From: a virus
IMG/VR virus record: IMGVR_UViG_3300028840_005337
Location: 62,001 to 126,000 of that record
Strand: one strand, 5' to 3'
Length of the DNA: 64,000 bases
Shown: piece after piece, positions 19,730 through 62,504 of the stretch
Numbering within the stretch: position 1 is the first letter of the stretch
Layout: each line of letters begins with the position of its first letter
The notes under the pieces: model-generated
Told to the model about the DNA's origin: nothing
Seen by the model: the letters and a program-made list of their open reading frames with translations, nothing else
Database searches by the model: none
Position numbers and translations under genes: made by a program

Positions 19730-20055
19730 CCCGGGCGTTTGCCACTCTCTGTCCTACACTTGCCACAGAGAGCGTGCCGGTTACCCCCTCCTAACCCGAG
19801 GGAAGGTGATCAGGCTCCGCGGTTCGTCCTTCATTGGGCGGCCGCGGCCTCGACCTGGGGTTCGGTCGGTTTGTGACGAACGCTAGTTGAATTCCCCCCA
19901 ATTTAACCAGTGGTACCGCCAAACCCCAGGTCACAAAGCATCAAAATGCGCGCCTTCTTGATGCCCTCAGAGGCGCGTGGGAAGATGCGTTCATGTACAG
20001 CGCCGCCCCACATCGTCGTGGGGCGGCGTCATTTCTCACACATAGGAGAGGACAA
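19730..20055 (+). ncRNA. Non-coding island with long-range and alternative pairings
   Basis: No convincing gene. Elements: CTCTCTGT/ACAGAGAG at about 19745-19776; CCGCGG repeated as a stem around 19818-19852; GACCTGGGGTT near 19853 and TTTGTGAC near 19871, which both complement the single later segment AACCCCAGGTCACAAA near 19922-19938, so two folds compete; and a perfect 11-bp hairpin at 20001-20028. Could be a regulated leader for the gene at 20056 or a stand-alone RNA. Confidence 0.45.
20001..20034 (+). terminator. Perfect 11-bp GC hairpin
   Basis: CGCCGCCCCAC-ATCGTC-GTGGGGCGGCG followed by TCATTTCT. The T tract is short, so it may be a terminator for an RNA in the preceding island or a stable leader hairpin just upstream of the GTG start at 20056. 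Confidence 0.5.
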
Positions 20056-20334
20056 GTGAACAAGGAAAAACTCGAGATGCTCAACGCTATGGGCGCCCTG
20101 CTGGACGACCCGGAGACCGTTGACGAGATCGACGAAGTGCTCGCCCGCGGCGTACAGCTGGTCGAACACGTGCTTGGCGCTATCGCCGACGCCCCGCGTG
20201 CGAAAGTGACGGCCGACCACATCGCGAAGCTGTGTCGGATGCAGTATCAATCGTTTTTGGACGCTGGCTTCAGCGACGGGCAGGCGTTTACGCTGCTGGT
20301 CGGCATCCGCGCCGGTCTCACGAAAATCAGTTGA
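20056..20334 (+). CDS. Small helical hypothetical protein
   Basis: 92 residues from GTG with AGGAGAGG upstream. Helical pattern (LEMLNAMGALLDDPETVDEI), then FLDAGFSDGQAFTLLVGIRAGL, a segment common in short phage proteins of unknown role. Confidence 0.65.
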   Translation: MNKEKLEMLNAMGALLDDPETVDEIDEVLARGVQLVEHVLGAIADAPRAKVTADHIAKLCRMQYQSFLDAGFSDGQAFTLLVGIRAGLTKIS

Positions 20335-20753
20335 TACATGTGCGTGTGGGGCTGTGGGCTTAGAAGCAGCCATCAGCTAAGGAGTGGCGAGTGGAAGTGC
20401 TCTGGACCGGGTTAGCCGCCCGGCCACCACAAGATAACCGTGCAGCATGACCGTTGGCAACGGATCGGCGGCTTCGACTGGGCATGGTGTCACCACCGGG
20501 AAGCGACAGCGGATGCGACGCTACGACCGGCCACGTACTACCGAAAGGCTTCGGTCGCCGTAGCGAATCAGAGTTCGTGAAGTCAGAGGGATGCAGTTTG
20601 CTACGGTAGTACCAGCGGAGTCCGTAGTTAAGGTTGAGAGACGACAATCGAAGTGTCGGGAAAACAATGCTCTTCCAATGCTGTATTCGTAGCCCGTGGA
20701 GCCTTTGGCGTGACAGCACACCCCACGCACATTTTTACAAAAGGAGAGGAGTT
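20335..20753 (+). ncRNA. Structured non-coding RNA carrying a 23S rRNA GTPase-centre-like segment
   Basis: About 420 bp without a convincing gene on either strand. Bases 20357-20375 read GGCTTAGAAGCAGCCATCA, which as I recall is identical to E. coli 23S rRNA 1062-1080 (helix 43, the L11-binding site). The flanking stem is kept but changed: GCTG (20351-20354) pairs with CAGC (20374-20377). The next stem GAGT/GCTC (20382-20385 with 20399-20402) mirrors helix 44 with a larger loop. Downstream hairpins include CCGGG/CCCGG (20407-20422), CCGTT/AACGG, GCTACG/CGTAGC, CTACGG/CCGTAG and CGACA/TGTCG. Ends are not defined. Confidence 0.65.
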
Positions 20754-20987
20754 ATGATCGCGCGAGCGAAACCCGGCTTCGACCCGGAGATCATTCGGTG
20801 TTCCGTGTTCGCTCTTCAGGTCTGCGTGCCTGCCACGTGGACTGACGAGGAGATCGAAGAGTTCGCTGAACAAGAGCACCCGGCCGGTGCTTTCGATGGG
20901 TGGCACATCCAGCGCGACGGGCCGTATCCGGAGCGCGTTTCATGCAATGACCGCGAGGGGTTCATCCACGTGGTCGTGGAGGTATAG
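20754..20987 (+). CDS. Hypothetical protein
   Basis: 77 residues; AAAAGGAGAGGAG before ATG. Pattern IIRCSVFALQVCVPATWTDE and a beta-like C-terminus (FIHVVVEV). Directly abuts the next gene. Function unknown. Confidence 0.65.
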   Translation: MIARAKPGFDPEIIRCSVFALQVCVPATWTDEEIEEFAEQEHPAGAFDGWHIQRDGPYPERVSCNDREGFIHVVVEV

Positions 20988-60506: not shown

Positions 60507-62504
60507 ATGAGCTTCCTCATCCCATCGTTTGCTGGCGGGACCAATCGGGGTTCGCAGAACATCGAGCCCTTCCCCGACCCCTTCTGCGACTACGCGTCGA
60601 CGCGTATGCCCGAGTCCCTGGAGAATGCTCTCCGGTGGTGCGAGTACATCATGCTGGCCAACGGCATCTACCGATCGGCGGTGGACCGAGTGGTCTCGTA
60701 CTTCATTACCGAGGTGGAGATCGATGGGACCGATCGGGACGGCAAGGAGAAGTACCTTGACTTCCTGAACAACACGCTGGGCATCAACTCGATCCTTCGG
60801 CAGACGGCGCTCGACTACGTCACCTACGGGAACTTCTTCAACTCGCTGGTTGTGCCATTCAGACGGCACCTGCGCTGCCCAGGCTGCGGCTTCGAGGCGC
60901 CTCTCGACCGGATCCACGGCAACGACAAGTTCAACTTCTCGTGGAGCGGCTTCGAGTTCAACGCCAACTGCCCCTTCTGCAGCTACCACGGCAAGTGGGC
61001 GCACAAGGACAGGCGATCGACCGAGGAAGACGACATCATCATCAAGCGCTGGAGCCCGCACGAGATGGAACTCGTCTGGGACCCGTACACCGACCAAGTC
61101 GGGCACGTGTGGCGCATCCCGAATCACTACAAGAAGTACATCAACCAAGGAACCTTGTTCCATCTGGAGCGTGCGCCGTGGGAGGTCCTGCAGGCGATCA
61201 AGAACAACACGCATATCCAGTTCAACAAGGACATCATCTACCACGGCAAGGAAGATACCCTGGCTGGCGTGCTGAACAAGGGCTGGGGCGTCAGCCGTAT
61301 CCTGACGAACTTCCGTCAGGCGTGGTACGTCCAAGTGCTTCACCGCTACAACGAGGCGATCGGCCTCGACTACATCATCCCATTCAGGGTGATTACGCCC
61401 GAGCCGCGTCCGGGCGGGGCCGGCGGTGGTGGTGAGTCAACGGACCCGCTGTTCACCGCTGACCTCGGCGGCTTCGTAGGCCAAGTCAACTCGATGCTGC
61501 GCCAACGGCGGCGTGACCCGACCATGTGGTTCACCATGCCGTTCCCGCTGAAATACCAGACTCTCGGGGGGGAAGCTAGCCAGTTGGCCCCGTATCAGCT
61601 CATGGACCAGGCCGTGGATGGCCTCCTGACGTCCGTAGGCGTCCCTGTGGAGCTCTACAAGGGTACGATGAGTCTCCAGGCTGCCCCGGCCGCGCTGCGG
61701 CTCCTGGAGAGCACCTGGAGCCACCTGACGACGATGCTGAACAACTACCTCCAGTGGCTGGTCAACAAAATCAGCGTGGCGCTGTCCTGGGACGAGGTTA
61801 CGGCCACCCTGGCCAAGCCGTCGCACGCGGACGATCTGAACCGTCAGCTGGCCAAGCTCCAGCTCATGATGGGACAGTCGATCAGCCAGACGACTGGCCT
61901 CAAGAGCGTCGGCCTCAAGTTCGAGGACGAGCAGCGCCGCATGCTCGACGAGCAGAAGTTCATCGCCGAGGAATCGCAGAAGACACAAGAGGAGCTGGAA
62001 GCCTCGGGCATGGGCGATGCAATGGCGCAAGGCATGATGGGCCCCGGAGGCCAACCGACCGATCCTGCTGCGGCAGGCATGGGTGGCCCTGGTGGTTCCG
62101 CACCTCCGCAAGGCGGTGCACCTCCGGCCGGCGGCGCACCGGGTGGCGCTATGCCTCCTCCAGGCGCAGAAGCCGGAATGGCGCCGATGGACCCGATTCA
62201 GGCCATCATGGCACAAATACCTCTGGGCAATGAGCAAAGCCTCACGCCGCCAGAGCTGGAGCAGATCGCCAACACGGTTGCCGAGCAGATCTACGGACTG
62301 CCCGGCGGGCAACGTGTATCCGCGCTGCGACAACTCAAGCAGGCGTCGCCCACCATTCACAGCCTGGTCAAGAGCCTTCTCGAACAGAAAGACTCGCAGG
62401 CTGAGTCCCAAGGCCGCATGATGGGCCAAGAGCAAGCTATGCAGATGCAACAGCAGAGCATGGCTCCACCCCCGCCGATGGGGCCGGGTGGTGGGATGAT
62501 GTAG
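60507..62504 (+). CDS. Portal protein with inserted zinc ribbon
   Basis: 665 residues. The portal ring joins capsid and tail and gates DNA. The core shows an N-terminal helix-rich part, stem-like SILRQTALDYVTYGNFFNSLVV and a long C-terminal helical region. A four-Cys ribbon (RCPGCGFEAPL, later NCPFCSYHGKW) is inserted at about 120-160. The final 170 residues are Gly/Pro/Met/Gln-rich. Fold-level call based on pattern and on the terminase at the opposite edge. Confidence 0.78.
   Translation: MSFLIPSFAGGTNRGSQNIEPFPDPFCDYASTRMPESLENALRWCEYIMLANGIYRSAVDRVVSYFITEVEIDGTDRDGKEKYLDFLNNTLGINSILRQTALDYVTYGNFFNSLVVPFRRHLRCPGCGFEAPLDRIHGNDKFNFSWSGFEFNANCPFCSYHGKWAHKDRRSTEEDDIIIKRWSPHEMELVWDPYTDQVGHVWRIPNHYKKYINQGTLFHLERAPWEVLQAIKNNTHIQFNKDIIYHGKEDTLAGVLNKGWGVSRILTNFRQAWYVQVLHRYNEAIGLDYIIPFRVITPEPRPGGAGGGGESTDPLFTADLGGFVGQVNSMLRQRRRDPTMWFTMPFPLKYQTLGGEASQLAPYQLMDQAVDGLLTSVGVPVELYKGTMSLQAAPAALRLLESTWSHLTTMLNNYLQWLVNKISVALSWDEVTATLAKPSHADDLNRQLAKLQLMMGQSISQTTGLKSVGLKFEDEQRRMLDEQKFIAEESQKTQEELEASGMGDAMAQGMMGPGGQPTDPAAAGMGGPGGSAPPQGGAPPAGGAPGGAMPPPGAEAGMAPMDPIQAIMAQIPLGNEQSLTPPELEQIANTVAEQIYGLPGGQRVSALRQLKQASPTIHSLVKSLLEQKDSQAESQGRMMGQEQAMQMQQQSMAPPPPMGPGGGMM

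Follow-up and report, generated by a model that had tools for sequence, protein, structure and literature searches.

What is a copy of a bacterial ribosomal element doing between the genes of a phage? The window analysed here is a 64,000-nucleotide stretch of a 133.6-kb IMG/VR virus record (IMGVR_UViG_3300028840_005337, positions 62,001 to 126,000), which carries genes for phage DNA polymerase, NAD-dependent ligase and DnaB-like helicase together with UvsX-like recombinase and SbcC-like genes. A gap without genes, flanked by open reading frames at 20056-20334 and 20754-20987, had been noted in a first-pass annotation, made without database searches, for a 19-mer identical to part of helix 43 (h43) of the 23S rRNA GTPase-associated centre (GAC). 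The annotation proposed a phage non-coding RNA mimicking the GAC. The 19-mer (GGCTTAGAAGCAGCCATCA) lies exactly where it was reported, at 20357-20375, and the reported C-G pair (20352/20376) in place of rRNA A1057-U1081 was also confirmed. Our analysis places the RNA gene at window positions 20338-20732 on the + strand, within the intergenic gap, and indicates that the phage RNA is very likely a GAC mimic.

The resemblance to 23S rRNA had been said to end after h43 and a following stem, taken to be helix 44 (h44) with a new loop. Neither statement held. The 3' half of h44 resumes 322 nt downstream, at 20708-20719, where GCGTGACAGCACAC (20708-20721) corresponds to rRNA 1091-1104 and closes both h44 and h42; because the true partner is found there, the local stem is not the conserved h44. 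The window RNA is a complete GAC (h42-h43-h44) interrupted by a 318-nt insert between rRNA positions 1090 and 1091 (Table 1), and the whole is closed by the outer stem ATGTGCGTG(T)GGG / CCCCACGCACAT. On the 5' arm, window position equals E. coli 23S position plus 19295, which puts the equivalent of A1067 at 20362. Relatives end in a 3' motif close to TTTGGCGTARNAGCACAC (20704-20721 in the window), which represents the 23S h44 3' half (GCGUAAUAGC...CAC, 1091-1104); the 3' strand of the outer stem comes after it. At position 1095 the window has a G (20712), compared with an A in 106 of 110 members.

Table 1. Features of the GAC-mimic RNA in the window (rRNA positions in E. coli 23S numbering)
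Feature	Window positions	Strand	Remarks
Outer stem (h42-like), 5' strand	20338-20350	+	Pairs with 20721-20732; bulged T at 20347
Position 1056 (G)	20351	+	Opposite A1103 (20720): non-canonical G.A pair of the GAC
h43 hairpin, rRNA 1057-1081	20352-20376	+	Contains the 19-mer 20357-20375
A-rich tertiary loop, rRNA 1082-1086 (CTAAG)	20377-20381	+	C20377-G20381 in place of rRNA U1082-A1086
h44 5' strand, rRNA 1087-1090 (GAGT)	20382-20385	+	A20383 = A1088, contact with U1060 (20355)
Insert between rRNA 1090 and 1091, 318 nt	20386-20703	+	
Sarcin-ricin-loop-like hairpin, in the insert	20601-20627	+	CTACGG-T-AGTAC-CAGC-GGA-GT-CCGTAG
TTTG linker, conserved	20704-20707	+	Precedes G1091
h44 3' half, rRNA 1091-1103 (GCGTGACAGCACA)	20708-20720	+	A1101 pairs with U1090
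Outer stem (h42-like), 3' strand	20721-20732	+	Followed by a T-run to 20736

By its stop-codon content the RNA is non-coding: among the 131 members of the family described below, 15% of the RNAs are free of stop codons in some frame, in comparison to 55% of random stretches from the same loci. Confinement of the 19-mer to a protein-coding gene, which would have refuted the original proposal, is excluded by the intergenic position and the full GAC anatomy. A search for a + strand promoter of the window RNA gave no convincing candidate, no Pfam families were found among its neighbouring genes and no tRNA was found in the window. Folding of the window RNA as a single sequence was not decisive (z = -1.62), and the support for the fold is comparative. 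A further G+C-rich hairpin with a terminator-like end (20013-20028) lies at 19950-20035, in the gap 5' of the open reading frame at 20056.

Both the GAC 3' half and the spread of the RNA among phages had escaped the first-pass annotation, which had suggested searching other phage genomes and aligning to 23S rRNA with covariance models. The search revealed both GAC arms, paired, at no fewer than 197 loci, and the stems are conserved in the 131 members that remain after dereplication. These counts are lower bounds; the viral scans with the 3' motif or with a shortened 5' motif each returned at least 120 stretches. The exact 19-mer occurs in 52 IMG/VR stretches, far more than chance would give, and only one of them (L042) is a true 23S gene. 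Since conservation within 1062-1076 is biased for members found through the 19-mer, we also ran a search that ignored the sequence of the h43 loop and relied solely on the 3' motif, base-pairing and the A-rich loop. A GAC 5' arm was present at 101 of 136 viral sites in comparison to 1 of 471 random anchors; this set still holds some loci first found via the 19-mer. The 3' motif was also sought in 257 Gb of bacterial genomes, which served as an internal negative control, and was found at 35 places, about 18 of which had a GAC 5' arm by eye, while the remaining matches, without the arm, are due to chance. The RNA was read directly in the named phages XaC1, XacN1, CBB, Serratia BF, pf16, Astolliot, UNO-G1W1 and Aeromonas 4_4572, falling mostly in unannotated stretches; the host genera are Pseudomonas, Aeromonas, Serratia, Pectobacterium and Xanthomonas. 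In pf16 the RNA occupies the space separating tRNA-Asn from tRNA-Pro. Its presence in Erwinia, Cronobacter, XbC2 and Vibrio phages is supported by BLAST matches alone.

To measure covariation, 48 diverse cores were spliced and aligned without gaps. Standard pairs fill 93.1% of the pair cells versus 71.6% after shuffling (0 of 500 shuffles), the covariation score is 0.524 versus 0.125 for shuffled and at most 0.172 for slid versions, and double changes occur in 14 of the 20 pairs. For the outer stem, with compensatory changes in all eight column pairs, the duplex energy across the 131 members is -11.1 kcal/mol, compared with -3.6 kcal/mol with shuffled partners. RNAalifold, to which no structure was supplied, reproduced h42 and h43, and also h44 except that its first pair lay in a shifted register. 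Among 110 members, all pair types occur in h42, pair 1058-1080 is UA in 43, GC in 36, AU in 21 and CG in 5, and pair 1057-1081 is AU in 95 and CG in 12. The tertiary contact 1082-1086, which in the published GAC crystal structure is a Watson-Crick pair important for folding (PMC6689051), is paired in 93% of these members (UA 56, CG 33, AU 13); U1060 and A1088 are unchanged in 110 of 110; and position 1103 is always A, with G or A opposite it at 1056 in nearly all. A1067, present in the window, is kept in 95 of the 110 (86%) and in 80% of the set found without h43 sequence. A covariance model built from the phage cores alone scored 74.7 and 71 bits on true GACs of 23S rRNA. Based on the secondary and tertiary covariation and on this match, we infer, from sequence alone, that selection very likely maintains a three-dimensional GAC, more than a 19-mer. 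The original proposal, that the phage carries a non-coding RNA mimicking the GAC, is strongly supported by the h42-h43-h44 anatomy, the covariation including tertiary contacts, the covariance-model match and the wide distribution.

With the 23S GAC (1051-1108) the phage RNA shares the three-way junction, the loop residues and the contacts U1060/A1088, 1082-1086 and G1056.A1103. It differs in being free-standing and closed by its own stem, in the 25-365 nt between 1090 and 1091, which have no rRNA counterpart, in the replacement of U1101 by an A, in a freely variable 1058-1080 pair and, in some members, in extra h43 hairpins. Rfam 15, at gathering score, gave no family for the RNA in the window or at 14 other loci, and only tRNA and tmRNA were recognized around it. 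Ribosomal-protein leaders such as the L10 leader (RF00557) imitate the rRNA site of a ribosomal protein and are cis elements 5' of ribosomal-protein genes; the phage RNA, in contrast, has neither a conserved downstream gene nor an Rfam match. GOLLD, ROOL and similar RNAs are large, structured, phage-encoded and often near tRNAs, and none of them is known to mimic an rRNA domain. The T4 stable RNAs C and D are likewise stable RNAs of unknown function in a phage tRNA cluster; they were considered as relatives (L251, T4 70908-71171) and rejected, as both GAC arms are absent. No prior description of such an RNA was found in the open-licence literature searched.

The insert ranges from 25 to 365 nt in the 131 dereplicated members, with a median of 131, and this variation identifies the GAC as the conserved part; the smallest member (L226) is scarcely more than a GAC and a hairpin. 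A helix at the base of the insert was only weakly supported in a shuffled-partner test. An insert subgroup of 27-30 of the 131 members shares CACCCC...GGTAAGG, and in about 27-30 members (e.g., L003, L019, L046 and L056) a second conserved block, CACCCCNNAANNGGTAAGGNNGAA, stands immediately 5' of the h44 3' half. Eight loci (L062, L090, L111, L112, L128, L133, L148 and L151) have extra hairpins of about 20-30 nt on the 3' side of h43, a second site at which the mimic tolerates expansion.

The window belongs to a subgroup with large inserts (309-346 nt), together with L020, L101 and L136, in which TAGTACNNNNGGA is invariant and the flanking stem shows compensatory changes. All four members compared carry on this covarying stem a UAGUAC-tetraloop-GGA hairpin (TAGTAC-NNNN-GGA), and the sarcin-ricin loop (SRL) of 23S rRNA has TAGTAC...GGA as its core. 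The tetraloops are CAGC (in the window), GAAA, GGGA and AGAA, in comparison to GAGA with A2660/G2661 in rRNA. Because the TAGTAC can alternatively pair with a GTACTA upstream, SRL mimicry in this subgroup remains a possibility that the data suggest and do no more. If it is real, the subgroup copies both rRNA elements that translational GTPases contact.

Genomic context was compared across the 131 loci, 89 of which have tRNA genes. Forty percent of the members have a tRNA no more than 50 nt away, compared with 20% of random positions, and the 198 tRNAs found within 500 nt all share the strand of the RNA. Some copies are 0-10 nt from a tRNA, many stand between tRNA genes without a directly adjacent open frame, and for just under half the stretch examined shows no tRNA within 300 nt. 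Several loci also contain a tmRNA. Apart from homing endonucleases, no recurrent neighbouring protein family was found, and no neighbour cluster is common to more than six loci. The absence of a recurring protein partner suggests that the partner is probably a host component and speaks for an RNA that acts in trans on host machinery. The RNA/tRNA arrays at L212, L180, L078, L114, L176 and L196 are surrounded by clustered genes for HNH and GIY-YIG homing endonucleases. On a Flintibacter muris contig (L240:2522-4711) the GAC RNA adjoins the gene of a phage RNA-repair enzyme that combines a T4 RnlA-like RNA ligase with a kinase and a metallophosphoesterase domain. Some jumbo phages (L054, L004, L053) have a peptidyl-tRNA hydrolase-like gene close to the RNA; the enzyme is annotated in XaC1, and in CBB there is a PTH2 match under the Pfam cut-off. 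PTH2 was considered as a systematic partner and rejected, the association being weak or sporadic.

What such an RNA might do was inferred from the known properties of the GAC, a 58-nt domain able to fold on its own and to bind L11 (PMC4409310). Both the GAC and the SRL make contact with translation factors and, along with RelA, with the A-site tRNA; SRL RNA in isolation binds EF-G and IF2, and the same paper cites binding of EF-G to oligonucleotides of the GAC type (PMC5829649). RelA function is in part L11-dependent (PMC7873864). The reading we prefer, with a probability of roughly 0.6, is that the locus is a trans-acting phage RNA gene whose GAC-mimic ends would make it an L11-binding decoy of the factor-binding site. 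The parts of this reading are not equally secure. The anatomy, the secondary and tertiary covariation, the spread among phages and the orientation shared with tRNA genes are observed. Transcription of the RNA and its folding in the manner of the GAC are strong inferences, made without transcript data, and action in trans is a likely inference. Binding of L11 is inferred because the GAC fold is the L11 binding site; in the absence of binding data we hold it to be fairly likely. The decoy function, still an inference as it was in the first-pass annotation, could as readily prove wrong as right. In the proposed mechanism, an RNA of about 400 nt would form a complete GAC from its ends and carry a variable structured domain within h44, and the L11-bound RNA would offer an off-ribosome copy of the factor-binding site. 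It may divert something that normally uses the GAC, be it L11, one of the translational GTPases or a ribosome-attacking defence effector of the host; diversion of L11 would weaken L11-dependent RelA/(p)ppGpp signalling. The h44 insert, plus the SRL-like hairpin in the subgroup of the window, may tune or extend the mimic. Sequence alone does not discriminate between L11, RelA, a GTPase and a defence effector as the partner that would be titrated. A1067, the chief contact for factors and thiopeptides, being A in only 86%, the G at 1095 in the window, and invariant residues that belong mainly to the tertiary core favour L11-type recognition over recognition of the tip, and the drift at A1067 with the G1095 of the window argues against thiopeptides as the target. 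Other points weigh against a decoy: L11 is about as abundant as ribosomes, so that titration would need a very abundant RNA, and the h44 insert might possibly block some partners.

Several other explanations were weighed against this reading. A captured or misassembled fragment of host rRNA without function is all but excluded. Genuine 23S pieces do exist in phage-labelled records, L042 (an IMG/VR contig) and L252 (Paenibacillus phage Pd_22F, MZ092003.1 82477-85513), probably as host contamination, and were excluded from the family. These pieces are plain 23S, however, unlike the family with its h44 insert, its U1101 to A change, its free outer stem and its heavy compensatory change; no continuous 23S sequence beyond the GAC was found in the flanks or the insert of the RNA. 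It is the covariation that refutes this reading, and the first-pass view that the match is not a misassembled rRNA piece was upheld. An element for the structure, processing or stability of tRNA-array transcripts, with the GAC fold serving only as a robust scaffold, would fit the adjacency to tRNAs, sometimes 0-10 nt, and the orientation that is always shared. It appears unlikely, given that nearly half of the members are remote from tRNAs, that the window has none, and that the rRNA-specific loop residues A1095 and U1094, not needed for a scaffold, are kept.

A cis-regulatory leader that senses L11 or a factor and controls a downstream phage gene, the regulator alternative raised in the first-pass annotation, has in its favour a co-oriented window gene that begins at 20754, 21 nt past the outer stem, and the established principle of ribosomal-protein leaders that imitate rRNA. 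We nevertheless consider it improbable, since downstream genes are not conserved, the largest neighbour clusters are homing endonucleases, and many copies stand between tRNA genes with no adjacent open frame. A counter-defence sponge, one specific version of the decoy idea, is harder to dismiss. Here the RNA would soak up an anti-phage toxin or nuclease of the host whose recognition site is the GAC and, for one subgroup, also the SRL. An analogy is offered by phage tRNAs, which stand in for tRNAs cleaved by the anticodon nucleases of the host. Co-location with phage tRNA arrays and the RNA-repair ligase/kinase genes near the RNA in at least one locus (L240) speak for the sponge; defence effectors are scarce enough to be titrated by an RNA, and a sponge would account for diversifying inserts and h43 extensions around a fixed core. 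Against it, no defence system is known to us that attacks the GAC, and there is no consistent association with counter-defence genes among the neighbours; we hold the sponge to be less likely than not.

Returning to the preferred trans-acting decoy, a bolder reading, on which we would not bet either way, is that very diverse phage lineages have kept an RNA that acts in trans as an imitation of the GAC, joined in one subgroup by the SRL, and diverts L11, RelA, a translational GTPase or a ribosome-targeting defence effector from the host ribosome. What is very likely is that a widespread, undescribed and unannotated family of phage RNAs copies a functional site that ranks among the most conserved in biology. 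The family accounts for gaps in phage tRNA arrays and jumbo-phage genomes that had no explanation, and its members are natural GAC variants in which hundreds of nucleotides are tolerated within h44. It may provide a handle on how phages deal with the stringent response, translation factors and ribosome-targeting defences. If the decoy reading is true, viruses would target translation control through a decoy of an rRNA domain, and rRNA-domain mimicry would be a viral strategy.
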